Positions 1,614 to 54,044 of a DNA stretch of 64,000 nucleotides are shown one piece after another; the first letter of the stretch is position 1, and every line of letters starts with the position of its first letter. The stretch is from assembly GCF_009668025.1 (NCBI RefSeq), contig NZ_WJXZ01000014.1:330448-394447 (forward strand), written 5' to 3'. This stretch comes from Larkinella terrae (GTDB taxonomy: Bacteria > Bacteroidota > Bacteroidia > Cytophagales > Spirosomataceae). A program made the position numbers and the translations under genes. Below the pieces are notes generated by a model, which did not search any database, was not told the origin of the DNA, and worked only from the letters and a program-made list of their open reading frames with translations.

Positions 1614-1650
1614 TGTTCACAAGCGGACAGCAACTGTCCGATTCCGTACA
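1614..1650 (+). promoter_or_regulatory. Tandem TGTCC-N6-GGACA-type enhancer sites upstream of PadR 1
   Basis: Two 16-bp imperfect palindromes, TGTTCACAAGCGGACA (1614-1629) and TGTCCGATTCCGTACA (1635-1650), are separated by 5 bp, so their starts lie 21 bp apart (two helical turns). The same arrangement recurs before five other units in the array. The right edge is 56 bp before the GG of the -24/-12 element. I infer binding by a sigma54 activator; the regulator is not in the window. Confidence 0.7.
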
Positions 1651-1660
1651 GTGCCTTTTC

Positions 1661-1700
1661 GGAAAAACAGCTAAAATGGCTGTTAAAAGCCGGTTTTTCC
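1661..1700 (+). repeat. Nested hairpin between enhancer and promoter
   Basis: GGAAAAAC (1661-1668) pairs with GTTTTTCC (1693-1700), and inside it AACAGC pairs with GCTGTT. It fills the space between the palindromic sites and the -24/-12 element. It could help DNA looping or end stray upstream transcription; the sequence does not decide. Confidence 0.45.
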
Positions 1701-1703
1701 AAG

Positions 1704-1720
1704 TTGGCAAGGCATTTGAT
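1704..1720 (+). promoter_or_regulatory. Sigma54-type -24/-12 promoter for block A
   Basis: TTGGCAAGGCATTTGAT has GG at 1706-1707 and the -12 G at 1718, the exact 12-bp spacing required by sigma54. The -24 half is good (TTGGCA); the -12 half reads TTTGA instead of the usual TTTGC. Predicted transcription start is about 1730, which supports the ATG at 1748 over the TTG at 1739. Confidence 0.6.
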
Positions 1721-1747
1721 CAGCAAAAATAGAACTAATTGATAGCG

Positions 1748-2086
1748 ATGAAACGAGGCTATTTAGGCGAGTTTGAAGAAATCGTACTGCTGACGGTAGC
1801 CGTCATGGAGGGAGGAGCGTATGGGGTTGCCGTCACGCACGAGATCGCGGAACAAACCGGGCGGTCGGTGCGGCTGAATCAGGTCCACGCGGCTCTCGAA
1901 CGGCTGGAAGACAAAGGCATGCTGAAATCGGAGATGGGCGAGCCCACCGCCGAGCGGGGTGGTCGCCGGAAACGGCTGTTCACGACCACGGCCTATGGTC
2001 GCCGGACGTTGCAGGAAATTCAGGAAGTACGCGAAAGTTTCTGGGCCAAATTACTGAATCCGTTCCGGCCCGCGACGAGCCTTTGA
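1748..2086 (+). CDS. PadR-family transcriptional regulator (block A)
   Basis: A 112-aa winged-helix protein of the short PadR class. After MKRGYLGEFEEIVLL comes the first helix, then a recognition region around residues 35-55 (RLNQVHAALERLEDKG) and a basic wing, TAERGGRRKRLF, at about 66-77. The C-terminal helix is short, so dimerisation through it would be minimal. It is the first gene of the transcript that continues into eight permeases. PadR regulators usually repress adjacent membrane or transport genes in response to a ligand; pairing with the permease prefix domain is my inference. It is closely related to the second PadR at 30332. Confidence 0.9.
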   Translation: MKRGYLGEFEEIVLLTVAVMEGGAYGVAVTHEIAEQTGRSVRLNQVHAALERLEDKGMLKSEMGEPTAERGGRRKRLFTTTAYGRRTLQEIQEVRESFWAKLLNPFRPATSL

Positions 2087-2090
2087 GAAA

Positions 2091-2159
2091 TGAACAATTA
2101 ACAATGAATGTTGGACGCCGGCAGCGCCTGTTCATTGTACATTATTAATTATTCATTCA
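2091..2159 (+). repeat. Intergenic inverted repeat, TGAACAATTAAC family
   Basis: The left arm TGAACAATTAACAATGAAT (2091-2109) pairs with the right arm from 2131 to 2159. The loop carries the sequence GGCAGCGCCTG, also found in the copies before the second, third, fourth and eighth permeases, with one change before the fifth. The right arm stops 7 bp before the next ATG. Confidence 0.75.
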
Positions 2160-2165
2160 AAAAAT

Positions 2166-4857: not shown

Positions 4858-4862
4858 AAAAA

Positions 4863-30302: not shown

Positions 30303-30331
30303 CGACATTATCGTATAAAATAACCTTTATC

Positions 30332-30670: not shown

Positions 30671-30675
30671 AGGGA

Positions 30676-36027: not shown

Positions 36028-36113
36028 ACAATTAACAATGAATGTGAATTGGTTGAGTGGTTGATTATCAATGGTGTTATGGGCCGTTCATTGTTAATTA
36101 TTCATTGTTCATT
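36025..36113 (+). repeat. Intergenic inverted repeat, TGAACAATTAAC family, second loop type
   Basis: Starts at the stop codon of paralogue 12 and ends at the ATG of paralogue 13. Arms are as in the other family members, but the loop is different (TTGGTTGAGTGGTTGATTAT and GTTATGGGCC). The copy at 38739-38827 is nearly identical. Confidence 0.7.
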
Positions 36114-38741: not shown

Positions 38742-38827
38742 ACAATTAACGATGAATGTGAATTGGTTGAGTGGCTGATTATCAATGGTGTTATGGATCG
38801 TTCAATGTTAATTATTCATTGTTCATT
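38739..38827 (+). repeat. Intergenic inverted repeat, TGAACAATTAAC family, second loop type
   Basis: Near-identical copy of 36025-36113, again running from the stop codon of one permease to the ATG of the next. Confidence 0.7.
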
Positions 38828-41434
38828 ATGACAAAACCGCCCCGCTGGCTTTCTTTTCTGCTTTCCTGCTTCGGAGACCCCAACACGCTGGAAGAAGTGC
38901 AGGGTGATTTGCTCGAACTGTATGCGTATTGGGTGAAAACCGTGGGGGAGCGCAAAGCCCGCTGGCGGTACGGTTGGAGTGTGCTGAAACTGTTGAGGCC
39001 CCTGGCCCGCCGAAAAAAAGATGATTCAATAAACCATTTCCTGAGTCCTGCTATGTTACGCAACTATCTGAAAATTGCTTTTCGAAACCTGACCAGAAAT
39101 AAGGCTTATTCGTTCATCAACATTGGCGGACTGGCAGTCGGCATGGCCGTAGCCATGCTGATTGGCCTGTGGGTGTACGACGAACTTTCTTTTGATAAAA
39201 CCGTCCCGAACTACGCCCGGATTGCCAAACCCATGCTGCACCAAACCGTAGATGGGATGACAACGACGAGCGAATGGGTGCCTATTCCGTTGAGTACAGC
39301 TCTGAAGAACGACTACGGCAGTGATTTCAGCCGCGTGATTCTCGCGCATTCAAGCGGGGAGCAGATTCTGGCGCACGGCACAAGCCAGTTCACCAAACGG
39401 GGCAGTTACGTAGAACCGGGGTTTACGGAGATGCTGTCGTTGCCCATGCAGCGGGGAATCCGCAGCGGACTGAACGACCCGGCGTCCATTTTGCTATCGG
39501 CCTCGGTGGCGGATGCGTTGTTTGGCAAAACCGATCCGATTAACCAGATCGTCAAAGTCAACAATAAAGTAGCCGTTAAAGTGGCTGGGGTTTACGACGA
39601 TTTTTCGACCAATTCGGAGTTCCGCGACATGGCTTATTTGCTGCCGTGGGCGCAGTTCGTGGCCGATCAGGAGTGGGTAAAACGCAGTGAGGATAACTGG
39701 AGTGTCAATGCGTTTCAGCTATTCGTCGAAATGGCACCCAACACCAATCTGGACCAGGTTTCGGCCAAAATTGAATCCGTGAAGGCAAGGCACGCCAAAG
39801 ACGAGGCTAAATACAATCCCAGGGCGTTCCTGCATCCGATGAGCCGCTGGCATTTGTATTCGGAATGGGAAAACGGAATTCCGGTTCGGGGGCGTATTCA
39901 GTTTGTCTGGCTGTTCGGAATTATCGGCGGTTTTGTGCTATTGCTGGCCTGCATCAACTTCATGAATCTCAGCACGGCCCGGTCGGAGAAGCGCGCCAAA
40001 GAAGTCGGGATTCGCAAAGCCGTGGGGTCGGTTCGCAGCCAGCTGGTGAGCCAGTTTTTTGGCGAATCGTTTCTGGTCGTATTTTTTGCCTTCGCGCTGG
40101 CTCTGCTGCTGGTTCAACTGACGCTACCGGCATTCAACGAAATCGCCGACAAAACCATGGGGATTTTATGGGATAATCCGCTGTTCTGGGCCATTGGCAT
40201 CGGTTTTAGCCTGATTACCGGTTTGGTAGCAGGCAGTTATCCCGCTTTTTATCTGTCCGGTTTTCAACCCGTGAAAGTGCTGAAAGGCACGTTTCGGGTC
40301 GGGCGGTTTGCGTCATTGCCACGAAAGGTATTGGTGGTGATGCAGTTTACGGTTTCGGTTACGCTGATCATCGGAACCATCATCGTTTTTCGCCAGATTC
40401 AGTACGCCAAAAACCGCCCGCTGGGATTTGATCGGAACGGGATGGTGACGGTTCGGATGAATACGCCGGATCTGATGACGAATTACCCGATTATCCATAC
40501 GGAATTACTGCAAACCGGTGCTGTTCAGCATGTAGCCGAATCCAACAACACGACTTCCGGCGTTTACTCGAGCGACAGTCGGCTGGACTGGAAAGGGCGG
40601 GACCCCAATCGGCCGGTCGATTTTAACGTGGTAACCTGCACGCACGATTTTGGCAAAACCGTCGGCTGGCAGATTAAGGAAGGGCGCGATTTTTCGCGGG
40701 CGTTCTCCACCGATTCGGTCGGGCTGATCATGAACGAAAGCGCGATCAAGTACATGGGACTAAAGAAACCAATCGGTGAGCGGGTCAAATGGGGCGAAGA
40801 AATGTACACCATCATTGGCGTGGTCAAGGATCTGGTGACGGATTCACCCTTTGAACCTGTTAAGCAGACGGTTTTCCGGCTGAATTACACCTGGACGAAT
40901 TTCATTACGATCCGGCTTAATCCGCAACTGAGCGCCCGCGAAGCGCTGGATAAAATCGAACCGGTTTTCCGGAAATACAACCCCGGCGGCCCTTTCGATT
41001 ATAAATTCATGAGCGACGAATACGATCAGAAATTCCGCGCTGAAGAACGGATCGGCAAACTCGCGACCCTGTTTGCCATCCTGGCCATTTTTATCAGTTG
41101 TCTGGGACTATTCGGGCTGGCGTCGTTCATGGCTGAGCAGCGCACCAAAGAGATTGGCGTTCGCAAAGTGCTGGGTGCTTCGGTGCTGAATCTCTGGGGA
41201 TTACTATCGAAAGACTTTGTGTTTCTGGTGTTGATCGGTTTCGGCATTGCGACGCCCATCGCCTATTATTCCCTCAGCGACTGGCTCCGCCATTACCAAT
41301 ACCGCACCGACATCTCCTGGTGGATTTTTGCCGCATCCGGCATCGGCGCACTGGCAATTACGTTGCTGACGGTCAGTTTCCAGAGCATCAAAGCCGCGCT
41401 GATGAATCCGGTGAAGTCGCTGCGGTCGGAGTAA
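38828..41434 (+). CDS. MacB/FtsX-type ABC permease with LLELY prefix, paralogue 14
   Basis: 868 aa from the ATG at 38828. The prefix differs from that of paralogue 13 at only a few residues (KTVGERKARWRYGWSVLKLL). After TM1 it reads LSFDKTVPNYARIAKPM, then ILLSASVADALFGKTDP, MSRWHLYSEWENG before TM2, and FRAEERIGKLATLF before the last block; FtsX motifs are at 373 and 774. Two short DNA tracts are shared exactly with other members: 39831-39876 with paralogue 9 and 41108-41175 with paralogue 13. It is the last gene of block B and converges on an unknown minus-strand gene 20 bp away. Confidence 0.93.
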   Translation: MTKPPRWLSFLLSCFGDPNTLEEVQGDLLELYAYWVKTVGERKARWRYGWSVLKLLRPLARRKKDDSINHFLSPAMLRNYLKIAFRNLTRNKAYSFINIGGLAVGMAVAMLIGLWVYDELSFDKTVPNYARIAKPMLHQTVDGMTTTSEWVPIPLSTALKNDYGSDFSRVILAHSSGEQILAHGTSQFTKRGSYVEPGFTEMLSLPMQRGIRSGLNDPASILLSASVADALFGKTDPINQIVKVNNKVAVKVAGVYDDFSTNSEFRDMAYLLPWAQFVADQEWVKRSEDNWSVNAFQLFVEMAPNTNLDQVSAKIESVKARHAKDEAKYNPRAFLHPMSRWHLYSEWENGIPVRGRIQFVWLFGIIGGFVLLLACINFMNLSTARSEKRAKEVGIRKAVGSVRSQLVSQFFGESFLVVFFAFALALLLVQLTLPAFNEIADKTMGILWDNPLFWAIGIGFSLITGLVAGSYPAFYLSGFQPVKVLKGTFRVGRFASLPRKVLVVMQFTVSVTLIIGTIIVFRQIQYAKNRPLGFDRNGMVTVRMNTPDLMTNYPIIHTELLQTGAVQHVAESNNTTSGVYSSDSRLDWKGRDPNRPVDFNVVTCTHDFGKTVGWQIKEGRDFSRAFSTDSVGLIMNESAIKYMGLKKPIGERVKWGEEMYTIIGVVKDLVTDSPFEPVKQTVFRLNYTWTNFITIRLNPQLSAREALDKIEPVFRKYNPGGPFDYKFMSDEYDQKFRAEERIGKLATLFAILAIFISCLGLFGLASFMAEQRTKEIGVRKVLGASVLNLWGLLSKDFVFLVLIGFGIATPIAYYSLSDWLRHYQYRTDISWWIFAASGIGALAITLLTVSFQSIKAALMNPVKSLRSE

Positions 41435-42072: not shown

Positions 42073-42183
42073 TGGTTTCGGGTAGGAACAAGTCGTTCAG
42101 AAGAGCCAGTCCGGCATTGCTTAAATGTAGGTATTTTAACGAATTCCATTTATTTTCTCCCTGTCCGGTTTTGATTCATTCGT

Positions 42184-42220
42184 TGTCCAAAAGCGGACAG
42201 GAATTGTCTGTGCAATTTTC
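42184..42220 (+). promoter_or_regulatory. TGTCC-N6-GGACA enhancer site plus half-site
   Basis: A perfect site TGTCCAAAAGCGGACA (42184-42199) is followed, 5 bp on, by a degenerate second site that keeps only its left half, TGTCT (42205). The 21-bp period is retained. The right edge is 44 bp from the -24 GG. Confidence 0.62.
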
Positions 42221-42261: not shown

Positions 42262-42278
42262 CTGGCACTTCATTTGTC
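42262..42278 (+). promoter_or_regulatory. Sigma54-type -24/-12 promoter for paralogue 15
   Basis: CTGGCACTTCATTTGTC: GG at 42264-42265, -12 G at 42276. Good -24 half; -12 reads TTTGT. Predicted start about 42288, leaving a 95-nt leader in which I see no other feature. Confidence 0.6.
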
Positions 42279-42382
42279 CGATACCGTTGAAAGAGTAACA
42301 AAACGAAATCAGTGGAAGGCAGCAGATTACTCTTTTCATTCGGGACCGCCCGGCGTTCATTCTCCATTGTTCATCAAAAACC

Positions 42383-44801
42383 ATGATCCGCAACTATCTG
42401 ACCGTCACGCTCCGCACTTTGCGCCGGTATCGCACCTACAGCCTGTTGAACATCACCGGTTTGGCGGTGGGGCTGGCGTGCGGGATTCTGATTTTTCTGG
42501 TGGTGAATTTTCAACTGGGTTTTGATCAGTACCACCGGAAAGCCGACCGGACGTACCGCATCGTCACGGAACTCCGGCACGAAATCGTTTCTTACAACCG
42601 GGGAACGCCCAAGGCGCTGGCCGAAGTCCTGCGCCGGGATTATCCGCTGATCGAAACCGCAGCCCGGATCAAGCGCGTTCGGAGCGGAATGCTGAGCTTG
42701 CCCCGTCCCGATGACGGTTTTCAGCAGAAATTCCAGGAAGACCGGGCGATTTGTTTTGCCGATCCCGAATTGTTCAACGTCTTTGATTTTCAGTGGAAAA
42801 CCGGTTCACCTTCGTCCAGTTTGACGAGGCCGAATTCGGCAGTCCTGACGGAAAAATACGCCCGAAAATATTTTGGCGATGCCGATCCGATCGGTCGTGT
42901 CCTCCGGCTGGATAACCAGTGGAACCTGACCGTCACCGGTGTTTTGAAGGATCATCCGGTCAACACTAACCTGGGCGATGACGTCTATATTTCCTACAGT
43001 ACGCTGGCCGGTTTGAGTGACGAAATGGCGCAGTCGCTCCGGAACTGGCCGGATCTCGACAGTGAAGAAATGACGTATATCACCCTGCCCGAAACCGCTG
43101 CCGTTGAACCGGTAAATGCGGTTTTTCCGGCCATTGCCCGAAAATATTATAATTCGGAAGATGCCCGGGTGTATCATTTCCGCTTGCAGCCGTTGACAGC
43201 CGTTGAGCGATGTGCATTTTAACGGTCAGTTCGGGGGTCGGATGCAGAAGAAATTCCTGTATGCAATGGCGTTTGTGGGCCTGTTCCTGATCGTCGCAGC
43301 CTGCATCAACTTCGTCAATATGGCCACGGCCCAGGCGCTTCGGCGGTCGAAGGAAGTGGGCGTTCGGAAGGCGATGGGCAGCACGCGCGTACAGTTGTTC
43401 GGGCAGTTTATGGCCGAAACCGCCCTGATCACGGTGGTTGCGGTCGTGGTGGCGCTGGGACTGGCGCAGACGGCCATGCCGCTGATCAACCTGTCAATGT
43501 CGGTTTTTAACGCCAATCTGGGCCTGACGGATCTGTTACAACCCAAACCACTGGCGCTGTTGCTGGCACTGGTGCTGCTGGTAATTCTGCTGGCCGGTTT
43601 TTATCCGTCGATCGTCCTGTCCGGTTTCAATCCGATTGCGGCTCTGCGGGGGCGGGTCAGCACGACGCAGGTTGGCGGAATTTCGGTTCGGCGCGGGTTG
43701 GTGGTCGTGCAGTTTTTTATCACCATTCTGTTCACTATCAGCATGCTCGTGATCATGTCGCAGCTGCGGTTTGTGCGGCAGGCCGATCTGGGTTTTACCA
43801 AAGATGCGGTTTTAACGGTTCCGCTTCCGACGGCCGACCCCATCAAACAGCAGACGTTGCGAAACCGCCTGCTGCAAATCGGGGCGATTGAAGAGGTGGC
43901 TTTTGACAACGCGCCACCGGCATCCAGCAACATCAACCAGTCGTCGTTTACGTACGATACCCGCACGGAACCGGAGAAATTTGAAACCCAGACCAAAATT
44001 GCCGATAAAAGTTACCTGACGCTATTCGACCTGAAACTGCGGGCCGGGCGCAACTTTTTCTCCAACGATACGGTCAGTAACGAGGTCATTGTCAATGAAA
44101 TGATGGTGAAAAGGCTGGGGCTCAAATCGGCGAACGAGATACTGGGTAAACGGCTGAACGTCTGGGATGCCGACCGGACGGTGGTGGGGGTCGTCAAAGA
44201 TTTTCACGTCAATTCCCTGCGGATGCCCGTCGGACCGCTTGTCATTTTCAAAAAGGCTTCGGCCAATCGAATGGCCGCCCTGAAAGTGGGCGCGGGCAAC
44301 CTGCCCGAAACGATCAAAACCGTTGAAGCGACCTGGAATGAACTGTTTCCCGAAAACGTCTTCACCTATCAGTTTCTGGACCAAATCCTCGAGCGGTTTT
44401 ACACCGCCGAAAACATTCTGCTGGTGTTTGCACAGGTCTTTTCCGTAATCGCCATTCTGATCGGTTGCCTGGGTTTATACGGTTTGATGGCATTCCTAGC
44501 CGAATCGAAAACGAAAGAAATCGGTGTTCGGAAAGTGTTGGGTGCCAATATGTTGCAAATTCTGTGGCTGTTTGGTCGGGAGTTTAGCCTGCTCATTCTG
44601 GCGGGTTTTGCGGTAGCGGCTCCGCTGGCGGGCTGGCTGATGAGCAAGTGGTTGCAGGATTATACGTACCGGATTGAGCTGGAGTGGTGGGTTTTCGGGC
44701 TGGCGATCCTCCTGGTTACGGGCATTACAATCCTCACGGTTTCGTATCAATCGATCAAAGCCGCACTCACGAATCCGGTCACTTCCCTTCGGGCGGAATA
44801 G
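42383..44801 (+). pseudogene. MacB/FtsX-type ABC permease without prefix, paralogue 15, frameshifted
   Basis: Two overlapping frames, 42383-43222 and 43203-44801, are one permease broken by an exact 10-bp tandem duplication: CAGCCGTTGA occurs at 43187-43196 and again at 43197-43206. Removing one copy joins HFRLQPL directly to SDVHFNGQFGGRM and gives an 802-aa protein, the normal length for its clade (paralogue 10 is 799 aa). The break lies just before TM2, so the first fragment would make only TM1 and the first periplasmic domain. The rest is intact: ACINFVNMATAQALRRSKEVG and ESKTKEIGVRKVLGANMLQILW, with FGREF. The C-terminus is NPVTSLRAE. It may be a recent null allele, a switch, or a sequencing error; the intact remainder argues for something recent. 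Confidence 0.88.
43187..43206 (+). repeat. 10-bp tandem duplication causing the frameshift
   Basis: CAGCCGTTGA twice, head to tail, with no spacer. Ten is not a multiple of three, so gain or loss of one copy switches the reading frame. Confidence 0.9.
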
Positions 44802-45002: not shown

Positions 45003-45039
45003 TGTTCAACTGCGGACAGGAATTGTACGATTTCGGACA
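45003..45039 (+). promoter_or_regulatory. Tandem TGTCC-N6-GGACA-type enhancer sites of block C
   Basis: TGTTCAACTGCGGACA (45003-45018) and TGTACGATTTCGGACA (45024-45039), 5 bp apart; the right edge is 55 bp before the -24 GG. Confidence 0.7.
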
Positions 45040-45091: not shown

Positions 45092-45108
45092 ACGGCACAG
45101 ATGTTGAG
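45092..45108 (+). promoter_or_regulatory. Sigma54-type -24/-12 promoter for block C
   Basis: ACGGCACAGATGTTGAG: GG at 45094-45095, -12 G at 45106. The ATG at 45101 lies inside this element, which rules it out as the start of paralogue 16. Confidence 0.52.
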
Positions 45109-45145
45109 CGACTCAAACCAGCCTAACCTATTTTTTCCTGATCCT

Positions 45146-47530
45146 ATGCTAAAAAATTACCTGACCATTGCCTGGCGGAATATTCTCAAGGACAAATTCT
45201 ACAGCCTGATTAATATTCTGGGACTGACCATCGGCGTCACCTGCGGTCTGTTGCTGCTGCTCTACGTGACGGATGAGTTAAGCTACGATCGGTACCATAA
45301 AAAAGCCGACCAGATCTACCGCATCGTCTCGTACATCACCGAGCCGGACAAAATCAATAACTGGTCGAGCACGCAGCCTCCGCTGGCGAAATCGTTGAAA
45401 CAGGACTATCCGTTCGTCGAAAACTACGTGCGGTTTTTTTCCAACGGCCGGGTGCCCTTCCGGAAGGGTGAGAAGCGGTTTTACGAAGAAGATGTCTACG
45501 GGGCCGATTCCACCGTGTTCGACGTGTTTACCTATAAATTTATTGAGGGTGATCCCAAAACCGCATTGGCCCGTCCCGGCAGCCTGGTGTTGACCGAGAA
45601 AACCGCCCGGAAGTTTTTCGGAGAAGGTAGTGCGCTGGGCCAGACGCTACAAACCAACGATACGACCTCCTATCAGGTGACGGGCGTGATCGAAGATGTA
45701 CCCCGAAATTCTCATTTCACGTTCAACGCGCTGATGTCGTTGAACCCGAATCAACGCCGGGCCGACGGCTGGGGCGGTTTTTATATCCTTAGCTACCTGG
45801 TTCTGCAGAAAAACTTCGATACGAGAATTCTGGAGAGCAAGTTTCCGCAACTGTACGACAAAAATATGGCGTCGATCTTCAAGCGGATGGGCATCAAGAT
45901 CACCTACCGACTGCAGCCGTTGACGAGCATTCACCTGCATTCAAAAATGGACGGTGAAGCGGGTGGCGACATCAGTTACGTCTACATTTTCAGTGCGGTC
46001 GCCTTCTTTATGTTGCTGTTGGCCAGCATTAATTACATGAATCTCGCCACCGCCCGCTCGGCCAAACGATCCAAGGAGGTTGGCTTGCGGAAAGTGATGG
46101 GGTCGCTTCGAAGCGCGCTCATGGGGCAGTTCCTGACGGAGTCGGTGTTGATGACGGTGCTGGCGCTGACGGCAAGTTTTATCCTGGTGGCCCTACTGCT
46201 GCCATTTTTCAATACGGTTTCGGGCAAGGAAATCCACTTTTCAGAGTTGCTGCGGCCACAATTTATCCTGATTGCCCTGTCAATTGTGGTGTTTACCGGT
46301 TTTGTCAGCGGCAGTTATCCGGCGTTTTATCTGTCTTCGTTTGAACCGGCAACGGTTTTGAAAGGCTCGTTCAATTCCAAAGGCGGCAGTTTTTTCCGGA
46401 AAACGCTGGTAGTGATTCAGTTTGCGATTTCGCTCATCATGCTGATTTGCACCTGGATCGTCTACGAGCAGTTGAATTACATGCGGGACAAGGATATGGG
46501 CTACAACCGCGAACAGGTGTTGACGATTGATTACCAGAACGGTCAACCCCGGGATCGCTATAACCTGCTGCGCAACAGCTTGATGGCCAATCCGAACATC
46601 CGCAGTGTGGCCACGGCTTCGTCGCCCACGAGCAACATTGGCGGGCGGATTATTTTTGGCGTTGAATCCAATACCGGGCTGAAAGAAATGGGCTTCAAAC
46701 CCATGGGCATCGATCACGATTTCCTGAAAACGATGGGGATGAAGGTGGTGGCCGGGCGCGATTTTTCGGATAAAATTCCGGCCGATACGTCCAATGGCGT
46801 GCTGGTGAATCAGGCTGCCGTCAAACGCATGGGCTGGAAAGAACCGATCGGCAAAAAAGTGGTGTTGGGGGGCTTACCGCAGGCGGGTCAGCCCGCTCCG
46901 CCGGAGGCAAAGGTCGTGGGCGTGGTGAAGGATTTTCACCAGCAGTCGCTCTACAGCCCCATCGAGCCAATGATTATGCTGTACCGGCCGAATAACGGCG
47001 TGATCCACATTAAGATCGATGCGAAAAACGCCGACAAAGCGATTGAGTTTATCGGTCAGAAATGGCGCGAAACTTACCCGGATAAGTTGTTCGAATACCG
47101 GTTTCTGGACCAGGATTTCGAATCGGCCTACCGCGCGGATGAGCTGCGTGGCCGGATTTTCACGGCGTTCTCCGCCCTGACCATCCTGATTGCCTGTCTG
47201 GGTCTGTTCGGACTGGCGACCTTTACGACCGAACAGCGTGTCAAGGAAATTGGCGTCCGGAAGGTGATGGGCGCGTCGGTGTCGAGCGTGGTGATGCTGC
47301 TCTCGAAAGACTTTACGAAACTGGTATTGTTCTCGTTTCCCATCGCGATTCCGGTTGCCTGGTACTCGATGGATCGCTGGCTGCAGCATTTTCCGTACAA
47401 AACGAGCATTGGCGTCGGAATATTTGTTGCCGCCTGTGTCATTACGCTCCTGATCTGCTGGATCACTGTCGTGTATCAGTCCGTCAAAGCCGCCATCGCC
47501 AATCCGGTGAAGTCACTTCGTTCGGAATAA
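45146..47530 (+). CDS. MacB/FtsX-type ABC permease without prefix, paralogue 16
   Basis: 794 aa from the ATG at 45146 (MLKNYLTIAWRNILKD); the longer frame overlaps the promoter. After TM1: TDELSYDRYHKKADQIYRIV. The first FtsX motif is at 292 (LASINYMNLATARSAKRSKEVGLRKVMGS), the second at 700 (TEQRVKEIGVRKVMGASVSSVV). The second periplasmic domain carries a small Pro/Ala-rich insertion (GLPQAGQPAPPEAKV) before VGVVKDFHQ. The C-terminus is NPVKSLRSE although there is no prefix. First gene of a three-permease block, 81 bp before the next. Confidence 0.93.
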   Translation: MLKNYLTIAWRNILKDKFYSLINILGLTIGVTCGLLLLLYVTDELSYDRYHKKADQIYRIVSYITEPDKINNWSSTQPPLAKSLKQDYPFVENYVRFFSNGRVPFRKGEKRFYEEDVYGADSTVFDVFTYKFIEGDPKTALARPGSLVLTEKTARKFFGEGSALGQTLQTNDTTSYQVTGVIEDVPRNSHFTFNALMSLNPNQRRADGWGGFYILSYLVLQKNFDTRILESKFPQLYDKNMASIFKRMGIKITYRLQPLTSIHLHSKMDGEAGGDISYVYIFSAVAFFMLLLASINYMNLATARSAKRSKEVGLRKVMGSLRSALMGQFLTESVLMTVLALTASFILVALLLPFFNTVSGKEIHFSELLRPQFILIALSIVVFTGFVSGSYPAFYLSSFEPATVLKGSFNSKGGSFFRKTLVVIQFAISLIMLICTWIVYEQLNYMRDKDMGYNREQVLTIDYQNGQPRDRYNLLRNSLMANPNIRSVATASSPTSNIGGRIIFGVESNTGLKEMGFKPMGIDHDFLKTMGMKVVAGRDFSDKIPADTSNGVLVNQAAVKRMGWKEPIGKKVVLGGLPQAGQPAPPEAKVVGVVKDFHQQSLYSPIEPMIMLYRPNNGVIHIKIDAKNADKAIEFIGQKWRETYPDKLFEYRFLDQDFESAYRADELRGRIFTAFSALTILIACLGLFGLATFTTEQRVKEIGVRKVMGASVSSVVMLLSKDFTKLVLFSFPIAIPVAWYSMDRWLQHFPYKTSIGVGIFVAACVITLLICWITVVYQSVKAAIANPVKSLRSE

Positions 47531-47611
47531 ATGGCGGGGGCATAGGGGTGAGGGCAGAGGGCAAATAAATAAACCCCTGCCCCGCTCCCTCTGCCCCGCT
47601 CCCTCTGCCCC
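47531..47611 (+). repeat. Intergenic repeat, GGGCAGAGG/CCTCTGCCC family
   Basis: GGGGGCATAGGGGTGAGGGC on the left, then CCCCGCTCCCTCTG repeated twice in tandem on the right, ending at the ATG of paralogue 17. Fills the whole spacer. Confidence 0.65.
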
Positions 47612-50005
47612 ATGCTAAAAAACTACCTCAAAATCGCTTTACGGAATTTGACCAAAAACCGGTTTTATTCCGTGATCAAAATTGCCGGACTAGCCGTGGG
47701 CCTCGCGGCTGGCATTTTGATCGCTTTGTTTGTCTACGAAGATTTCTCGTACGACGGTTTTAATACCAAAAAAGACCGGATTGTGCGGGTGCTGACCATC
47801 GATCAGGCCGAGGGCGTCAAGAGCAAGCTGGTGGGAGTGAGCTATCCCGGTTTGGCCCCGGCCATCACGCGCGACCTGCCCGAAGTGGTCAATAGCGTCC
47901 GGATTTCGGAGCAGGGGCGGGTGCCGCTGAAAGTGGGCGATAACCTGATTAGTTCCGAAGGAACGTTCCGCACCGAAAGCTCTTTCTTCGAAATCTTTGA
48001 TTATAAAGTACTGACCGGGCCGTCGGAAGGCATTCTGGACGAACCGCAAACCGTGGTGCTGACCGAAACGCTGGCGAAAAAGCTGTTTGCCGGTGAAAAT
48101 CCGGTCGGCAAAACCATTCAGTCGGGCACGCAAAACTTCAAAGTGAAAGCCGTTATGGCCGATCCGCCGACTAATTCGCACCTGCGGTTCGACATGCTGC
48201 GGTCGATGGTGCCCGCGCAGGGTGATACGAATTACGCCCGGTTTCTGACTTCCTTCAACGGCATCAGCGTCTACAGCTATCTGTTGCTCGATCGGGCCCG
48301 CGATCTGAACACGATTATTCCGAAACTGAAACAGGTGGCCGATAAAAACCAGGGCTACGCCTTTTTTGTCCCGACTCTGCAGTACCTGAAAGACGTTCAC
48401 CTCAATTCGGGCGAAATTCTGTTCGAACACAATACAAACAAAACCGATGCGGCCAACCTGTACGTTCTGGGCACGATTGCGCTGCTGGTGGTGTTACTGG
48501 CCGCCGTCAACTTCATGAATCTGGTAACGGCCCACGCCACCGGGCGGGCCAAGGAAGTCGGTTTGCGGAAAGTGGCCGGGGCCGTGCGAACGCAGCTGAT
48601 CTGGCAGCACTTGCTGGAATCCATCGTCGTGACGGCCATTTCAGCGGTTCTGGCGGTTGGGCTGGCGGTGGTTTTGTTGCCGGTCTTGAACAACATTTAC
48701 CAGCGAAACGCCAATCTGGTCAAACTGCTGACGCCCGAAGCGATTCTGGGGATAACCGGTTTTGTGCTGATAATTGGCTTAGTGGCCGGTAGTTATCCGG
48801 CTTTTGTGCTGTCGAAATTTCGGCCGGTCGTGGTGCTGAAAGGCGCTTTCAAAAATACCAACAGCGGTATTCCGCTCCGGCAGTCGCTGGTGGTGATTCA
48901 GTTCACGATTTCCATTGCGCTGATGGTCGGCACGGGCGTAGTTTTCCGGCAGATGCGCTACATTCAGAACAAAGACCTCGGATTTAGTCGCGAGCAGATC
49001 ATTTCCGTTCCGTTCAAAGGACAACTGGCCATTCAGCGCGCGCGGACATTTCAGGCCGAACTAAAGCAGAATCCGAATGTAATTGGCACCGGCACCACCA
49101 GCAACCGAATGGGGCAGCAATTGGGCCGCACGACCTTTGTGCCGGAAGGAAAACCGTCGACCACGAATTACATCGCCAGCGTGATGGCCGTCGATGAATC
49201 GTTTGTGCCGACGATGGGTATGCACATCCTGAAAGGTCGCAATTTCTCACTGGATTTTCCGGCCGATTCAGCTTCGTCGATGGTGATCAACGAAGAAATG
49301 GCGAAGATGCTGGGCTGGAAAGAGCCGATCGGGAAAATTGTTAGACTGCCGTCCGGCCCCAACCCAACCGATGCGACGCCCTACACCGTGATTGGTCTGG
49401 TCAAAGATTTCCATTTTGCCACGATTCGGCACAAGGTGGAGCCGTTGTTCATGCTGTATAACAAAAACAATAACCAGCTCGCTGTCAAAATCAATATCGC
49501 CAACGCGCCCGAAACGCTGGCGTTTATCGAGAAAACCTGGAAGCAGATTAACCCGGAAACGCCGTACGAATACAGTTTTCTGGATGCGGATTTCGGGAAA
49601 CTCTACCGCAGCGAACAGGCGTTTGCAACGATGTTCAGCCATTTTACGGTTTTAGCGCTGTTCATTGCGGTGTTGGGCCTGTTCGGGCTGGCGGCTTTTA
49701 CGGCCGAGCAACGCCGGAAAGAGATTGGGATTCGCCGGGTGCTGGGCGCCGAAACCGGGTCGCTGCTGTACCTACTATCCCGCGAATTCATCAAGCTGGT
49801 TGTGATTGCCTTCGTGATTGCCAGTCCGCTGGCGTGGTACCTGATGAATCGCTGGCTCGACGGTTTTGCCTACCGCACCGACCAAAGCGCACTTCTGTTT
49901 GCCGTCGCTGGCGTTGCTGCGGTTCTGGTTACGCTAATCACCGTCAATCTCCAGGTTTTCAAAGCCGTCAATACGAATCCGGTTACTTCGCTACGCTCAG
50001 AATGA
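47612..50005 (+). CDS. MacB/FtsX-type ABC permease without prefix, paralogue 17
   Basis: 797 aa, MLKNYLKIALRNLTKNRFYSVIKIAG. After TM1: EDFSYDGFNTKKDRIVRVL. The first FtsX motif at 296 is variant, AAVNFMNLVTAHATGRAKEVGLRKVAGA; the second at 703 reads QRRKEIGIRRVLGAETGSLLYLLS. The last helix departs from the family (VTLITVNLQVFKAVNTNPVTSLRSE where most have TVSFQSIKAALMNPVKS), which makes it one of the most divergent members. It lies in the middle of block C with no promoter of its own seen. Confidence 0.93.
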   Translation: MLKNYLKIALRNLTKNRFYSVIKIAGLAVGLAAGILIALFVYEDFSYDGFNTKKDRIVRVLTIDQAEGVKSKLVGVSYPGLAPAITRDLPEVVNSVRISEQGRVPLKVGDNLISSEGTFRTESSFFEIFDYKVLTGPSEGILDEPQTVVLTETLAKKLFAGENPVGKTIQSGTQNFKVKAVMADPPTNSHLRFDMLRSMVPAQGDTNYARFLTSFNGISVYSYLLLDRARDLNTIIPKLKQVADKNQGYAFFVPTLQYLKDVHLNSGEILFEHNTNKTDAANLYVLGTIALLVVLLAAVNFMNLVTAHATGRAKEVGLRKVAGAVRTQLIWQHLLESIVVTAISAVLAVGLAVVLLPVLNNIYQRNANLVKLLTPEAILGITGFVLIIGLVAGSYPAFVLSKFRPVVVLKGAFKNTNSGIPLRQSLVVIQFTISIALMVGTGVVFRQMRYIQNKDLGFSREQIISVPFKGQLAIQRARTFQAELKQNPNVIGTGTTSNRMGQQLGRTTFVPEGKPSTTNYIASVMAVDESFVPTMGMHILKGRNFSLDFPADSASSMVINEEMAKMLGWKEPIGKIVRLPSGPNPTDATPYTVIGLVKDFHFATIRHKVEPLFMLYNKNNNQLAVKINIANAPETLAFIEKTWKQINPETPYEYSFLDADFGKLYRSEQAFATMFSHFTVLALFIAVLGLFGLAAFTAEQRRKEIGIRRVLGAETGSLLYLLSREFIKLVVIAFVIASPLAWYLMNRWLDGFAYRTDQSALLFAVAGVAAVLVTLITVNLQVFKAVNTNPVTSLRSE

Positions 50006-50087
50006 ATAATGAACAATTAACAATGAACATTGGACAATGAAAGTCGGCAGGTTACTCTGTTCATTTTTCATTGTTAATTGTTCATTC
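50003..50087 (+). repeat. Intergenic inverted repeat, TGAACAATTAAC family
   Basis: Starts at the stop codon of paralogue 17; the right arm is 50060-50087 and ends 8 bp before the ATG at 50096. The loop keeps only AAGTCGGCAGG of the common loop sequence. Confidence 0.65.
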
Positions 50088-50095
50088 GAAAGAAT

Positions 50096-52522
50096 ATGCT
50101 AAAAAACTACCTCAAAATCGCCTTACGAAACCTCCGCAAGCAGCGCGGGTTTGCATTTATCAACATCCTGGGGCTGGCGATGGGCCTGGCCTGTTGCCTG
50201 CTGATTACGCTCTACGTCGTCGATGAATTGAGCTACGACCGGTTTCACGAAAAAGCCAACCGGATTTATCGGATCAATTCCGACATCAAGTTTGGCGGCA
50301 ACGACATGCACATGGCGGTTTCGCCCGATCCGATGGGGCCAACCTTGCTGAAGGATTATCCGCAGGTGGAGAACTTCGTCCGGCTGCACGGCCGGGGAAC
50401 CTGGCTCGTCAAGCAGACGGGGAAAGCGAATAGCCTGCGGGAAAGTGATATCCTTTTTGCCGATTCCACGCTATTCGATGTGTTTACGCTGCCGCTGGTA
50501 CACGGTAACCCGAAACGGGCGCTGGTGGAACCGAATACCGTGGTGATCAGCGAATCGGCGGCCCGGCGTCACTTCGGCAACCAGAACCCGATGGGAAAAA
50601 CGCTGCTGTTCGACAATCGGCTGACCTTCCGGGTGACGGGCGTTATGCGCGACATGCCGACCAACTCCCATTTCCGCACCGATTTTTTCCTCTGCATGCG
50701 GAGCGACAATTATGAGTGGGGAAGATGGCTTAGCAATAACCACCAAACCTATATTCTCCTGAAAGATGGCGTTGATCCAAAACAGTTTAGCAAGAATTTT
50801 GAAACCATCATTCAGAAATACGTCGGGCCGCAGGCGTTTCAGTTTATTGGAACAACGATGAACGAGTTTCGGAAAGCCGGAAACCGGATCGACTACTCGT
50901 TTATTCCGCTGACCGACATTCACCTGCATTCGAAACAGAACATCGAACTGGCTCCCAACAGCGACATTCAGTACGTGTACGCGTTCTCGGCGGTAGCGGT
51001 TTTTATCCTGCTCATTGCCTGCATCAACTTCATGAATCTGTCGACGGCGCGCTCGGCAAACCGGGCGAAGGAAGTGGGCGTTCGGAAAGTGCTGGGCTCT
51101 GTGCAGCATCAACTGGTCGGGCAGTTCATGACCGAATCGATTCTACTGACGGTTTTGTCGATGGTCCTGGCGCTGGTGATCGTTCAACTGGCCATCCCGT
51201 TCTTCAACGACATTTCGACCAAACAACTGACGATCAGCAACCTGTTTGTTCCGCAGTTCCTACCGATTTTGCTTCTTTTGCCGCTGGTGGTTGGACTGCT
51301 GGCGGGCAGCTACCCGGCTTTTTTCCTGTCGTCGTTCCGGCCGATCAGCGTGCTCAAGGGAAAAATTAATCTGGGGTTGAAAAGCGCTGGTTTGCGGAGC
51401 GGTCTGGTGGTTTTCCAGTTTATGATGTCCGTGATTCTGATCGTTGGCGCGATGGTGGTCTATCGCCAGATCAATTTTATTCAGACGACCAAAGTGGGTT
51501 TCAACCGCGATCAGGTGCTGACCATCAACGAAGCTTATGCCCTGGGTAATCAGACGCAGACGTTCAAAGAAGAAGTCCTGAAACTGCCGGGTGTCCTGAA
51601 CGGTTCGGTATCCGGTTATCTGCCGGTGCCCTCAAACCGGAGCGATAGTCCGCTGTTTCCGGAAGGAGAGATCAACCAGAGCGGGGCGGTTTCGACGCAG
51701 CAATGGGGTGTCGATTATGATTACATCCCAACGCTGGGCATGGAACTGGTGAAGGGCCGTAATTTCTCGCGGGAATTTGGTTCCGACTCAACCGGAGTCA
51801 TTCTGAACGAAACCGCCGTGAAGGTTTTCGGTTTTAAAAACCCCATCGGAAAGCGGGTGATGCAAATGCAGGACAATGAAGGGAAAAAATACAAGGCTTA
51901 CACCGTGATTGGAGTGGTGAAAAACTTCCATTTCGAGTCGCTGCGGCAGAACATCGGTTCGGTTGCTCTGTTCATGGATCCTAACCGGGGAGCCGTGTCC
52001 TTTCGGCTCAGCAACCAGGATATTCCGGCTTTGGTGAAACAGATTGAAGGAAAATGGGAGCAAATGGCGCCGGGCATGCCGTTTAGCTATTCGTTTCTGG
52101 AAGACAGTTTCGATGCCATGTACCGCGCCGAACAGCGCGTCGGCCAGATTGTGCTGACGTTCTCGGTTTTGGCGATTCTGATTGCCTGTCTGGGCCTGTT
52201 CGGTCTGGCGGCTTTTATGGCCGAACAGCGGACGAAGGAAATTGGCGTTCGGAAAGTGCTGGGCGCCAGCACCTCCAGCATTGTGGGTCTGTTGTCGAAA
52301 GATTTTCTGCGCCTGGTACTGATCGCGATCCTGATTGCCACGCCGATTGCCTGGTACGGCATGAACCAGTGGTTGCAGGATTTTGCCTATAAAATCGACG
52401 TTCCGTGGTGGGTTTTCGTGCTGGCGGGCCTGGTTGCCATTCTGATTGCGTTCGCAACGGTTTCGTTCCAGTCCATCAAAGCCGCTCTGACCAATCCGGT
52501 GAAATCGTTAAAAGCCGAGTAA
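50096..52522 (+). CDS. MacB/FtsX-type ABC permease without prefix, paralogue 18
   Basis: 808 aa from the ATG at 50096; the ATG at 50078 lies in the repeat arm. The body is near paralogues 5 and 11: VDELSYDRFHEKANRIYRI after TM1, ACINFMNLSTARSANRAKEVG at 307, SAGLRSGLVVFQFMMSVIL at TM5, LEDSFDAMYRAEQRVG before the last block and QRTKEIGVRKVLGASTSSIV at 714. It lacks the prefix those two carry. The C-terminus is NPVKSLKAE, the same ending as the remnant at 24290. Last gene of block C. Confidence 0.93.
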   Translation: MLKNYLKIALRNLRKQRGFAFINILGLAMGLACCLLITLYVVDELSYDRFHEKANRIYRINSDIKFGGNDMHMAVSPDPMGPTLLKDYPQVENFVRLHGRGTWLVKQTGKANSLRESDILFADSTLFDVFTLPLVHGNPKRALVEPNTVVISESAARRHFGNQNPMGKTLLFDNRLTFRVTGVMRDMPTNSHFRTDFFLCMRSDNYEWGRWLSNNHQTYILLKDGVDPKQFSKNFETIIQKYVGPQAFQFIGTTMNEFRKAGNRIDYSFIPLTDIHLHSKQNIELAPNSDIQYVYAFSAVAVFILLIACINFMNLSTARSANRAKEVGVRKVLGSVQHQLVGQFMTESILLTVLSMVLALVIVQLAIPFFNDISTKQLTISNLFVPQFLPILLLLPLVVGLLAGSYPAFFLSSFRPISVLKGKINLGLKSAGLRSGLVVFQFMMSVILIVGAMVVYRQINFIQTTKVGFNRDQVLTINEAYALGNQTQTFKEEVLKLPGVLNGSVSGYLPVPSNRSDSPLFPEGEINQSGAVSTQQWGVDYDYIPTLGMELVKGRNFSREFGSDSTGVILNETAVKVFGFKNPIGKRVMQMQDNEGKKYKAYTVIGVVKNFHFESLRQNIGSVALFMDPNRGAVSFRLSNQDIPALVKQIEGKWEQMAPGMPFSYSFLEDSFDAMYRAEQRVGQIVLTFSVLAILIACLGLFGLAAFMAEQRTKEIGVRKVLGASTSSIVGLLSKDFLRLVLIAILIATPIAWYGMNQWLQDFAYKIDVPWWVFVLAGLVAILIAFATVSFQSIKAALTNPVKSLKAE

Positions 52523-52526
52523 AGAT

Positions 52527-52640: not shown

Positions 52641-52645
52641 CGGTC

Positions 52646-52661
52646 CGTCCGTTCCCGGACA
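52646..52661 (+). promoter_or_regulatory. Single TGTCC-N6-GGACA-type enhancer site
   Basis: CGTCCGTTCCCGGACA, one mismatch from the perfect palindrome, 56 bp before the -24 GG. No convincing second site lies 21 bp away. Confidence 0.5.
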
Positions 52662-52714
52662 ATTTTAGAAAATCAATTACTAGTAACTTGTTGAAAAATA
52701 GCGTATTACGGCTT

Positions 52715-52731
52715 ATGGCCTGTTATTTGCA
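52715..52731 (+). promoter_or_regulatory. Sigma54-type -24/-12 promoter for the DUF4097 gene
   Basis: ATGGCCTGTTATTTGCA: GG at 52717-52718, GC at 52729-52730. This copy has the canonical -12 TTTGC and supports reading the other five as the same promoter class. Predicted start about 52742, a 77-nt leader. Confidence 0.6.
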
Positions 52732-52818
52732 AAGCTCTAAAACGGAACTGGTGCAACTTAACCTACCTATTCTGCATCTTTCCGGCAAACTCTCTCTCAA
52801 TCTCACAACACAAATACC

Positions 52819-53859
52819 ATGAAACGTTCATCTTTCCTGTTAACCGCTCTCGGAGCACTCGCCATCTCTTTCAATACCCTAGCTCAGGACAAAGACGAAA
52901 CCCCTTACGAAACCAAAAATTTCAACGGCAGTCTGAATAACGTCCGGGTGGAAACGTCCGGCGGCAGCATCTCGGTAGAAGGGAGTCAGTCGAGTGGCGT
53001 GAAGGTAGAAATGTACGTGCGGGGCAACAACTGGCCGAGTAATAAACTTTCCAAAGACGAAATCGAAGAACGACTGAAAGAATACGAAATCAAACTGGGC
53101 GTCGAAAACAATACAGTCATCGCAACCGCCAAGCGGAGAAAGAACGACGACTGGGATTGGAAACGATCGATCAATATTTCGTTTAAGGTGTACACCCCCA
53201 AAAACTTTGCAACCGATCTGCACACCAGCGGTGGCAGCATTCGCCTGAGCAATCTGGTAGGTAGCCAGAACTTCGCGACCAGCGGAGGAAGCCTGCACCT
53301 GACCGGCGTGGAAGGTCTGATCAAAGGCCGGACGTCGGGTGGCAGCATTCACCTCGATCGGTGCCGCAAAGATATCGATCTGTCGACCAGTGGCGGTTCG
53401 ATCCACGCCGAAGATTCGGATGGCAACCTGGATCTGCGGACCTCCGGTGGCAGTGTCAACCTGACCAATCTGAGCGGTAAAGTCAACGCCCGCACCAGTG
53501 GCGGCAGCGTCAGAGGTGACGGCGTCAAAGGCGAATTGGTAGCCGGTACGAGTGGAGGTTCGGTTCGGTTGTCCGGCATTTCGGGCAGCGTCGAAGCCAG
53601 CACCAGCGGTGGGGGCATGGATGTTGAAATCACGAAACTGGGCGAATACGTCCGGCTGTCGGGTGGTCCGGGCAGCGTAAATGTCAAAATGCCACTCGAT
53701 CAGGGCATTGACCTGGATCTGTCTGGAAACCGGGTGGATATTCCCCTGAGCAAGTTCGACGGAACCGTTGAAAAAGACCGCGTTCGGGGTCGTCTGAACG
53801 GTGGCGGTGTGCCCGTCCGCATTTCCGCCGGTAGCGGGAGTGTACACGTAAACAGGTAA
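52819..53859 (+). CDS. Exported DUF4097/toastrack-like beta-repeat protein
   Basis: 346 aa with a signal peptide (MKRSSFLLTALGALAISFNTLAQ). After an N-terminal strand region and a charged segment (about 75-95) comes a run of about eight repeats of roughly 20 residues, each with the motif TSGGS(I/V/L), typical of DUF4097/head-GIN proteins that fold as a stacked beta-solenoid. The last part (about 300-346) lacks the motif. It would sit in the periplasm or at the outer membrane. DUF4097 ('toastrack') domains are often found with envelope-stress genes such as PspC and LiaI families, and with PadR regulators. Here it lies within the permease array and has the same promoter class, so a role with the permeases is likely but not shown. 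Confidence 0.85.
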   Translation: MKRSSFLLTALGALAISFNTLAQDKDETPYETKNFNGSLNNVRVETSGGSISVEGSQSSGVKVEMYVRGNNWPSNKLSKDEIEERLKEYEIKLGVENNTVIATAKRRKNDDWDWKRSINISFKVYTPKNFATDLHTSGGSIRLSNLVGSQNFATSGGSLHLTGVEGLIKGRTSGGSIHLDRCRKDIDLSTSGGSIHAEDSDGNLDLRTSGGSVNLTNLSGKVNARTSGGSVRGDGVKGELVAGTSGGSVRLSGISGSVEASTSGGGMDVEITKLGEYVRLSGGPGSVNVKMPLDQGIDLDLSGNRVDIPLSKFDGTVEKDRVRGRLNGGGVPVRISAGSGSVHVNR

Positions 53860-53924
53860 GAGTTAAGCGTTATGAGTGAAGAGTTGGCTGACGCGTTTAA
53901 CTCTTCACTCATAACGCTTAATTC
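53860..53924 (+). repeat. Inverted repeat, AACTCATAAC family; possible terminator
   Basis: Arms of 26 nt (53860-53885 and 53899-53924), almost fully complementary, around a 13-nt loop, immediately after the DUF4097 stop. Related in sequence to the spacer at 15631-15713. Confidence 0.65.
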
Positions 53925-53938
53925 ATAACTCCTTTTCC

Positions 53939-53976
53939 TGTCCGTTTGTGAACAAAAGAGTGTCCGGTGACGGACA
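53939..53976 (+). promoter_or_regulatory. Tandem TGTCC-N6-GGACA-type enhancer sites upstream of paralogue 19
   Basis: TGTCCGTTTGTGAACA (53939-53954) and the perfect site TGTCCGGTGACGGACA (53961-53976), whose symmetry continues outward to AGAGTGTCC/GGACACTCT. Spacing is 6 bp here against 5 elsewhere. The right edge is 54 bp before the -24 GG. Confidence 0.7.
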
Positions 53977-54027
53977 CTCTTTTGTTTTTAATGCGTCTAT
54001 TCGGTTAATTACCAGCCTTTTGGTTTT

Positions 54028-54044
54028 CTGGCATAAGCCTTGAG
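54028..54044 (+). promoter_or_regulatory. Sigma54-type -24/-12 promoter for paralogue 19
   Basis: CTGGCATAAGCCTTGAG: GG at 54030-54031, -12 G at 54042. Predicted start about 54054, upstream of the ATG at 54079 but downstream of the TTG at 54040, which decides the start of the gene. Confidence 0.58.

Follow-up and report, generated by a model that had tools for sequence, protein, structure and literature searches.

The 64,000-nucleotide stretch of DNA analysed here (the window, positions 330,448 to 394,447 of contig NZ_WJXZ01000014.1 of the Larkinella terrae genome, written below as C6:330448-394447) carries a long array of genes for MacB_PCD/FtsX-type permeases. As judged from sequence, six promoters in this array very probably belong to one sigma-54 regulon that is run, through paired palindromic sites, by an NtrC-family response regulator encoded at C6:230751-232148. 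The site, the promoter element, the spacing between them, their linkage to genes, their conservation in relatives and their co-occurrence with the regulator are all observed directly in the genome sequences (7.85 Mb in the case of L. terrae; C numbers denote contigs, L numbers loci and G numbers genomes). Regulons of this kind are known; what appears to be new is the unusually large size of this one and the assignment of a regulator to a site.

Each of the six promoters combines a sigma-54-type -24/-12 element with one or two upstream palindromes of the form TGTCC-N6-GGACA. They precede the genes of two PadR-type regulators (PadR 1 and PadR 2), three permease paralogues (15, 16 and 19) and a LiaG-like protein that the original prediction, made on the window alone, had labelled DUF4097. 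Their parts are listed below in window coordinates, with mismatches counted over the 10 arm positions, elements on the plus strand and palindromes without strand.

1614-1629: predicted distal activator palindrome, PadR 1 promoter, TGTTCACAAGCGGACA, 1 mismatch
1635-1650: predicted proximal activator palindrome, PadR 1 promoter, 21-bp pitch, TGTCCGATTCCGTACA, 1 mismatch
1704-1721, plus: sigma-54-type -24/-12 element, PadR 1 promoter, TTGGCAAGGCATTTGATC, GG at 1706
30186-30201: predicted distal activator palindrome, PadR 2 promoter, TGTCCGTTTTGGTACA, 1 mismatch
30207-30222: predicted proximal activator palindrome, PadR 2 promoter, exact, 21-bp pitch, TGTCCGCTTTTGGACA
30286-30303, plus: sigma-54-type element, PadR 2 promoter, TTGGCACTGCATTTGATC, GG at 30288
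42162-42166: half-site TGTCC, 22 bp before the paralogue 15 palindrome
42184-42199: predicted activator palindrome, paralogue 15 promoter, exact, TGTCCAAAAGCGGACA
42262-42279, plus: sigma-54-type element, paralogue 15 promoter, CTGGCACTTCATTTGTCC, GG at 42264
45003-45018: predicted distal activator palindrome, paralogue 16 promoter, TGTTCAACTGCGGACA, 1 mismatch
45024-45039: predicted proximal activator palindrome, paralogue 16 promoter, 21-bp pitch, TGTACGATTTCGGACA, 1 mismatch
45092-45109, plus: sigma-54-type element, paralogue 16 promoter, the weakest (CGGC), ACGGCACAGATGTTGAGC, GG at 45094, overlapping the listed open reading frame (ORF) start at 45101
52646-52661: predicted single activator palindrome, DUF4097 promoter, CGTCCGTTCCCGGACA, 1 mismatch
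52715-52732, plus: sigma-54-type element, DUF4097 promoter, ATGGCCTGTTATTTGCAA, GG at 52717
53939-53954: predicted distal activator palindrome, paralogue 19 promoter, TGTCCGTTTGTGAACA, 1 mismatch
53961-53976: predicted proximal activator palindrome, paralogue 19 promoter, exact, 22-bp pitch, TGTCCGGTGACGGACA
54028-54045, plus: sigma-54-type element, paralogue 19 promoter, CTGGCATAAGCCTTGAGT, GG at 54030, overlapping the listed ORF start at 54040

All six GG-N10-G elements named in the original prediction are present, its coordinates falling two bases before the GG, and the palindromes lie where it had placed them, give or take two bases, with a pitch of 21, 21, 21 and 22 bp in the four full pairs. 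The distances from palindrome end to GG, taken as coordinate differences, are 56, 66, 65, 55, 56 and 54 in promoter order. The values of 54-56 bp in four cases and 66 in one were therefore right, and the 44 bp given for paralogue 15 was wrong; since the true distance there is 65, the outlier vanishes and the six promoters fall into two classes, four at 54-56 and two at 65-66, separated by one helical turn. At -24, five of the six elements read TGGC and that of paralogue 16 reads CGGC. At -12 the dinucleotides are those predicted (GA four times, GT once, GC once), so that the GC looked for in a sigma-54 promoter occurs in one element of six. This variation had been named as the weak point of the prediction; it is real, but the worry is slight because elements of the GG-N10-G type recur throughout the genome-wide set with TTTG or TTG at -12 and any of the four bases after it.

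Across the whole genome, paired TGTCC-N6-GGACA palindromes (up to 3 mismatches) occur 26 times, 17 at 21-bp and 9 at 22-bp pitch, whereas the same pattern read backwards, used throughout as the control for chance, gives none at either pitch. The window holds four of these pairs plus two further sites. Three pairs in the genome have no mismatch, and exact single palindromes number 23 against 2 in the reversed control. When one mismatch is allowed, the number of single palindromes in the whole genome is no longer significant (142 against 120 reversed) and most of them are due to chance, so that information resides only in exact or paired sites. A half-site followed by TGGY-N7-TTG at 48-70 bp proved uninformative as a search pattern (62 matches against 68 reversed, both strands), and the exact palindrome at C20:91312, which lies inside an ORF with no element in the band described below, was taken as chance. 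Further elements come with a single or degenerate site: two in the window (42262 and 52715), two elsewhere on C6 (at 852388 and near 309.4 kb) and two on C19 (near 337.7 kb and near 338.6 kb). Together with the 26 pairs this makes about 32 promoters. The pairs precede permease operons and are not scattered at random.

The palindromes are tied to the element by a strict spacing. When 300 bp were searched outward on both sides of each of the 26 pairs, TGGY-N7-TTG was found at 52-56 or 63-65 bases beyond the palindrome (bases between palindrome end and GG, i.e., the coordinate difference minus one) in 24 pairs and at 57-62 in none; the band of 52-66 was picked after a first look, so this count is not blind, and relatives were examined afterwards. 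Outside the band the pattern matched twice in 14,092 positions. In the two pairs with no strict element a GG-N10-G variant takes its place, at 54 for C6:375450, which lies in the window, and at 66 for C4:211800. Over all 26 pairs the spacing splits into 13 at 52-56 and 13 at 63-66, with none at 57-62 and means that differ by 10.3 bp, and the activator promoters of 31 relatives divide in the same way (20, 11 and none, respectively). Neither the stretch 60-220 bp downstream of each of the 26 pairs nor the plus strand up to 150 bp from the six window elements contained a box of the TAnnTTTG type, which would have spoken for ordinary promoters. Judged by sequence, neither of the two outcomes that the original prediction named as refuting it has thus occurred. 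A generally known consensus for integration host factor (IHF) occurs in 5 of 25 spacers between palindrome and -24, compared with a mean of 0.19 and a maximum of 2 in 500 shuffles. The five spacers (C6:232294, C6:259558, C6:277467, C12:83755 and C20:94519) are all AT-rich and the other 20 lack the motif; two promoter sub-types, with and without an IHF consensus, may exist. Perfect terminator-like hairpins stand between palindromes and -24 at L020:5195-5230 (15-nt arms) and L025:5100-5134 (14-nt arms).

The original prediction was that one enhancer-binding protein encoded outside the window switches on most of the array with the DUF4097 gene, and it proposed to look for a gene of this type with the site at its own promoter. 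The sequence supports this, and the gene in question is very probably L008, a candidate activator whose surroundings are as follows.

C6:230751-232148, minus: NtrC-type response regulator (candidate activator, L008), about 98 kb upstream of the window
C6:228821-230149, minus: kinase beside the regulator
C6:232480-233727, plus: HlyD adaptor at the head of the permease cluster, divergent from the regulator
C6:233857-234534, plus: ABC ATPase at the cluster head, followed by permeases

The region between regulator and adaptor contains one of the three zero-mismatch pairs, that is, two exact palindromes 21 bp apart, and then TGGCACGTCAATTGG (CTGGCACGTCAATTGGCA), with 56 bases between. The candidate has a receiver domain (PF00072, 64.8 bits), a sigma-54 activation domain (PF00158, 222.9 bits) and HTH_8 (PF02954, 53.9 bits). 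Its NCBIfam neighbours are PrsR, AtoC, NtrC and ZraR, with scores under the cut-offs of all 25 models shown, and its relatives of solved structure include NtrC-family activators and ZraR. The genome encodes a single RpoN (PF04552, 185.9 bits) and twelve proteins that match PF00158, eight strongly and four weakly; of the eight strong loci, each taken with about 1.5 kb of flank, L008 alone has a palindrome pair nearby. Among the recognition helices of the strong activators, that of L007 was not readable and L003 showed no helix-turn-helix in its last 60 residues. Hydropathy places two spans in the kinase, at residues 3-31 and 33-51, with almost no loop between them, and two adjacent spans are found in 12 of the 14 kinase orthologues shown (exceptions L147 and L201). 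Intramembrane-sensing kinases are built in this way, with two spans in the membrane and a very short loop.

The activator-adaptor layout recurs in Spirosomataceae, the family of Larkinella, and in Chitinophaga. At a threshold of E 1e-100 the regulator has a match in 103 of 121 family genomes, own genome included and paralogue-only and partial matches counted. Fifty orthologue loci, the own locus and others chosen from the 103, were examined: 31 contain an adaptor match, and 29 of these have a pair (up to 4 mismatches, 20-22-bp pitch, no further than 900 bp from where the regulator gene starts), 23 of the adaptor-bearing loci also with an element at 55, 56 or 66; a weak pair was seen in one of the 19 loci with no adaptor. 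A pair with no more than 3 mismatches is present in 38 of the 80 best named orthologue loci (reversed control 0), and 33 of the 38 also have an element of slightly looser pattern; among the 38 are loci from Larkinella, Emticicia, Runella, Dyadobacter, Persicitalea, Chitinophaga and Ferruginibacter. The 21 loci of more distant orthologues, L186-L206 (from Mucilaginibacter, Hymenobacter, Sediminibacterium, Solitalea and others), mostly keep the gene order and have a pair in none. A search of the 650 bp upstream of the activator in 21 loci of Mucilaginibacter, Hymenobacter and similar orthologues (L168-L170 and L189-L206) gave a single poor match to a TGGC-type element, in L201. The recognition helix follows the site to some extent: TRTALYRRL is present in 9 of 9 proteins shown from the site-less Mucilaginibacter-type group and in 0 of 21 shown from site-bearing loci, which read (S/T)R(Q/A)(A/S)LYRR. 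When one pair locus was taken from each of 30 relatives, 23 of the loci had a neighbouring match to a permease, PadR or adaptor and 15 had a recognised element.

Some relatives deserve mention in their own right. In Runella (L131, L135, L144) the element occurs on both sides of the pair, and it is possible from this arrangement that the pair controls the regulator gene as well as the adaptor operon, bidirectionally. Ferruginibacter paludis has five TGTAC..GGACA pairs about 5 kb apart (G133:C31:119788-140531), perhaps a tandem array of its own. Regulator orthologues of 57-58% identity with an adjoining kinase match occur beyond the Bacteroidota, in metagenome-assembled genomes of Latescibacterota (L173, L177-L179), possibly by transfer or misbinning.

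Pairs and activator also occur together among genomes. The 121 genomes were grouped by their match to the regulator as strong (92), weak or partial (11) and none (18), and pairs at 21-bp pitch were found in 80, 5 and 2 of them, respectively (Fisher p = 5e-10 for strong versus none, kinship ignored). The totals are 506, 16 and 2 pairs against 19, 1 and 0 in the reversed controls (524 versus 20 over all 121). A set of 20 named genomes, some of them also among the 121, gave 118 pairs against 12 in controls, with pairs in 17 genomes and none in those of Mucilaginibacter, Hymenobacter and Solitalea.

A number of observations weigh against the assignment of the regulon to this activator. The association is uncorrected for phylogeny, and the 18 genomes with no match, most of them small, include nine of a single genus. 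Twelve of the 92 strong-match genomes have no 21-bp pair, although three of them have weaker pairs of 20-bp pitch with 3-4 mismatches at the activator. Several Chitinophaga genomes barely exceed their control (2 versus 1, 3 versus 1, 3 versus 3, 2 versus 2), so that in this genus a large regulon finds support at the activator operon only. Five of six named Spirosoma loci have no pair and the sixth, L154, has a 3-mismatch pair with no element; one of these six genomes holds 22 pairs elsewhere. The helix does not separate all loci, since the site-less L156, L169, L170, L173 and L177 do not have TRTALYRRL and L169 and L170 resemble the site-bearing L152. There are seven other strong activators in the genome, of which L005 is 41% identical and has a similar recognition helix. 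Finally, the loop that contacts sigma-54 reads GAFTDA instead of GAFTGA. In 130 orthologue loci (some species represented twice) the loop is GAFTDA in 121 and GSFTDA in two and was not found in seven. GAFTDA has been placed among the loop variants expected to keep activity (PMC4641369), and variants of the NorR GAFTGA loop, G266D included, are described as retaining open-complex activity (PMC2941729).

Three other explanations of the palindromes were weighed. It is unlikely that another enhancer-binding protein binds the site, for instance the L005 paralogue at C6:910706: its helix, RFALYRRLEKYGI, does resemble that of the candidate, but its 3.5-kb locus has no palindrome with up to 2 mismatches, and among the 11 genomes with a weak or partial match (grouped by candidate match alone) six have no pair and four have one. 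The eleventh, G089, has 12 pairs, and its partial match, 68% identical to the candidate, seems to lie at the end of a contig.

Less probable still is that the palindromes are operators through which PadR-type repressors coded behind several of them repress their own genes. PadR genes do come after the pair at several promoters, and the 56 strong-activator genomes with a PadR match hold 434 pairs compared with 72 in the 36 that have none. However, 26 of these 36 keep pairs, 72 against 1 in the control (one PadR query at E 1e-8, which diverged PadRs may escape), and at E 1e-3 no PadR match was found around the activator-adaptor promoter of L. terrae (L018) or in the 80 named orthologue loci, 38 of them with a pair. 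The location of the palindromes, well upstream of -24 at a constant and phased distance, is also more in keeping with an activator than with a repressor. A CRP/FNR-type regulator acting with an ordinary sigma factor is barely credible, in spite of the identical arm spacing of the CooA consensus TGTC-N8-GACA (PMC7306483), as the palindromes are tightly tied to GG-N10-G with no TAnnTTTG box downstream, the centres of the tandem pairs lie some 85-120 bp upstream of the expected start and the sites are linked to an enhancer-binding protein gene.

The regulon ascribed to L008 appears to consist largely of permease operons, which lie behind 21 of the 26 pairs (HlyD-ATPase-permease and PadR-permease operons included; gene calls are longest ORFs, not curated annotation, and operon extents are inferred). 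Of the remaining pairs, that at C19:202840 precedes a PadR gene alone and four precede genes of small secreted-looking proteins. Three of these proteins give marginal DUF3244 matches (24.6, 24.9 and 25.4 bits, cut-off 25), and nothing significant was found for the other one. Small secreted-looking proteins that resemble DUF3244 (24.6-26.5 bits) and stand behind this promoter architecture are encoded at L038:4278-4652, L029:8709-9095, L039:4932-5309 and L040:5837-6544, and are possible envelope or exported partners.

Plus-strand permease ORFs extend from C6:234947 to 386910, interrupted by three gaps of more than 3 kb that hold other genes. The cluster amounts to 45 permease-like ORFs, 40 of them of at least 700 aa, plus one more full-length, an 814-codon frame at C6:309525-311966 (L224). 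By same-strand adjacency the six window promoters would cover 17 of the 19 window permeases, with the split paralogue 15 counted as one, and the common control of the array and the DUF4097 gene that had been proposed is supported in this sense; in front of the permeases at 24465 and 27129 no palindrome with up to 2 mismatches was found. MacB_PCD and FtsX domains were detected in all three window permeases scanned; the scores of three window permeases with the ADOP model TIGR03434 (316.7, 253.6 and 271.3 bits) lie under its cut-off of 622.3. The genes of the window, including those beyond the cluster tail, are as follows.

1739-2086, plus: PadR-type regulator 1 (PF03551, 36.1 bits, cut-off 27)
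2166-23725, plus: eight MacB_PCD/FtsX permease genes after PadR 1, all on the same strand, domains checked in the first
30332-30670, plus: PadR-type regulator 2 (TIGR03433, 38.6 bits, under the cut-off of 101.8; matched in the PadR 1 search)
30625-41434, plus: four permease genes after PadR 2
42383-44801, plus: permease paralogue 15, two overlapping ORFs (42383-43222 and 43203-44801)
45101-52522, plus: three permease genes, paralogues 16-18
52819-53859, plus: LiaG-like gene (LiaG NF049997, 37.9 bits, under the cut-off of 285)
54040-56463, plus: permease paralogue 19, MacB_PCD and FtsX
56986-57675: ABC ATPase beyond the cluster tail
58571-60088: OEP outer-membrane efflux protein beyond the cluster tail
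60152-61633: second adaptor beyond the cluster tail

The DUF4097 label of the gene at 52819-53859 was not confirmed, as a Pfam search at E 0.1 gave no match. The two ORFs of paralogue 15 are in different frames, which denotes a broken gene or a sequence error. Minus-strand ORFs of about 150-175 aa stand between permease genes, with similar-looking ones in C6:242-322 kb; the one at window 23727-24194 encodes a Uma2-family putative nuclease (38.1 bits, cut-off 27) and that at 56501-56947 has no Pfam match.

To reach sigma-54 polymerase from one face of the DNA, an NtrC-type activator requires just such paired dyads, two turns apart and at a phased distance before the -24/-12 element, and we infer a mechanism of this type, from phosphorylation and binding to sigma-54 dependence and coordinated induction. 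The kinase at C6:228821-230149 would phosphorylate the NtrC-family regulator, which would bind the paired palindromes, two turns apart on one face of the DNA, and act on RNA polymerase-sigma-54 at the -24/-12 element. As the end of the proximal palindrome is separated from the -24 GG by 52-56 or by 63-66 bp, distances one helical turn apart, the activator would stay on the same face in both promoter classes. The HlyD-ATPase-permease operon at the cluster head would be switched on in this way together with 20 or more other permease operons, inside the cluster and outside it, as would PadR genes, the LiaG-like gene and the small secreted proteins. The build of the kinase, the FtsX-type permeases and the LiaG-like gene suggest that the signal may be envelope stress or antimicrobial peptides.

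Several known systems share parts of this arrangement. Sigma-54 promoters have been predicted before FtsX-like permeases (COG0577), as they are in this array, with enrichment in the class Bacteroidia among others, in what is described as first evidence (PLoS One 2025, PMC12316311); the passages of that paper on these promoters, unlike the present analysis, name no activator, activator site or array. In Flavobacterium psychrophilum a sigma-54 regulon with envelope-stress functions has been reported (PMC9723704). The two-component system QseF/GlrR likewise joins an NtrC-type activator with TGTC/GACA dyads, sigma-54 and putative IHF sites (PMC8745638, PMC4987338), and its output is envelope homeostasis (PMC6075780). 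Its site is TGTC-N10-GACA, with arms two bases wider than the TGTC-N8-GACA found here (PMC8745638, PMC4987338), the candidate scores 272.5 bits with the GlrR model against a cut-off of 763, and the targets differ. The best NCBIfam match of the candidate is PrsR (TIGR02915, 385.1 bits over residues 4-465, under the cut-off of 502.6) and the kinase reaches 88.0 bits with PrsK (TIGR02916, cut-off 300); PrsK/PrsR belong to the XrtA/PEP-CTERM system, whereas the targets here are permeases.

On the side of the permeases, darobactin-type (DarBCD) and MacAB-type exporters also comprise an HlyD adaptor, a MacB/LolD-like ATPase and MacB_PCD/FtsX permeases, but all scores with their models are under the equivalog cut-offs and the present cluster differs in having at least 40 full-length permease ORFs, with adaptor and ATPase at its head. 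Bce/Lia-type modules, as they are generally known, resemble it in a kinase with two spans and almost no outside loop and in FtsX-type permeases, the LiaG-like match being weak, and differ from it in the response regulator, which is here an NtrC-type sigma-54 activator. A literature search on the regulator-permease link, the lineage, the array, the site string, ADOP/PadR, GlrR and GAFTGA variants, with most subscription papers outside its reach, gave no title, abstract opening or passage in which the activator or the site is named.

To our knowledge, few sigma-54 activators with a defined site have been described in the Bacteroidota, and the analysis provides a candidate activator, a kinase, a DNA site and a target list for a large, hitherto unassigned regulon of this phylum. 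The statistical association of sigma-54 with FtsX-like permeases that has recently been published (PMC12316311) thereby gains a candidate activator and site, and the role of large MacB-type permease expansions becomes directly testable via one regulator and about 32 promoters. Tentatively, and with appreciable doubt, the system could be a sigma-54 counterpart of Bce/Lia, in which MacB/FtsX-type permeases would report envelope damage or antimicrobial peptides to the kinase and the NtrC-type partner would switch on dozens of diversified permeases. If this is true, these Spirosomataceae would have a combinatorial repertoire for sensing and export under one master switch.

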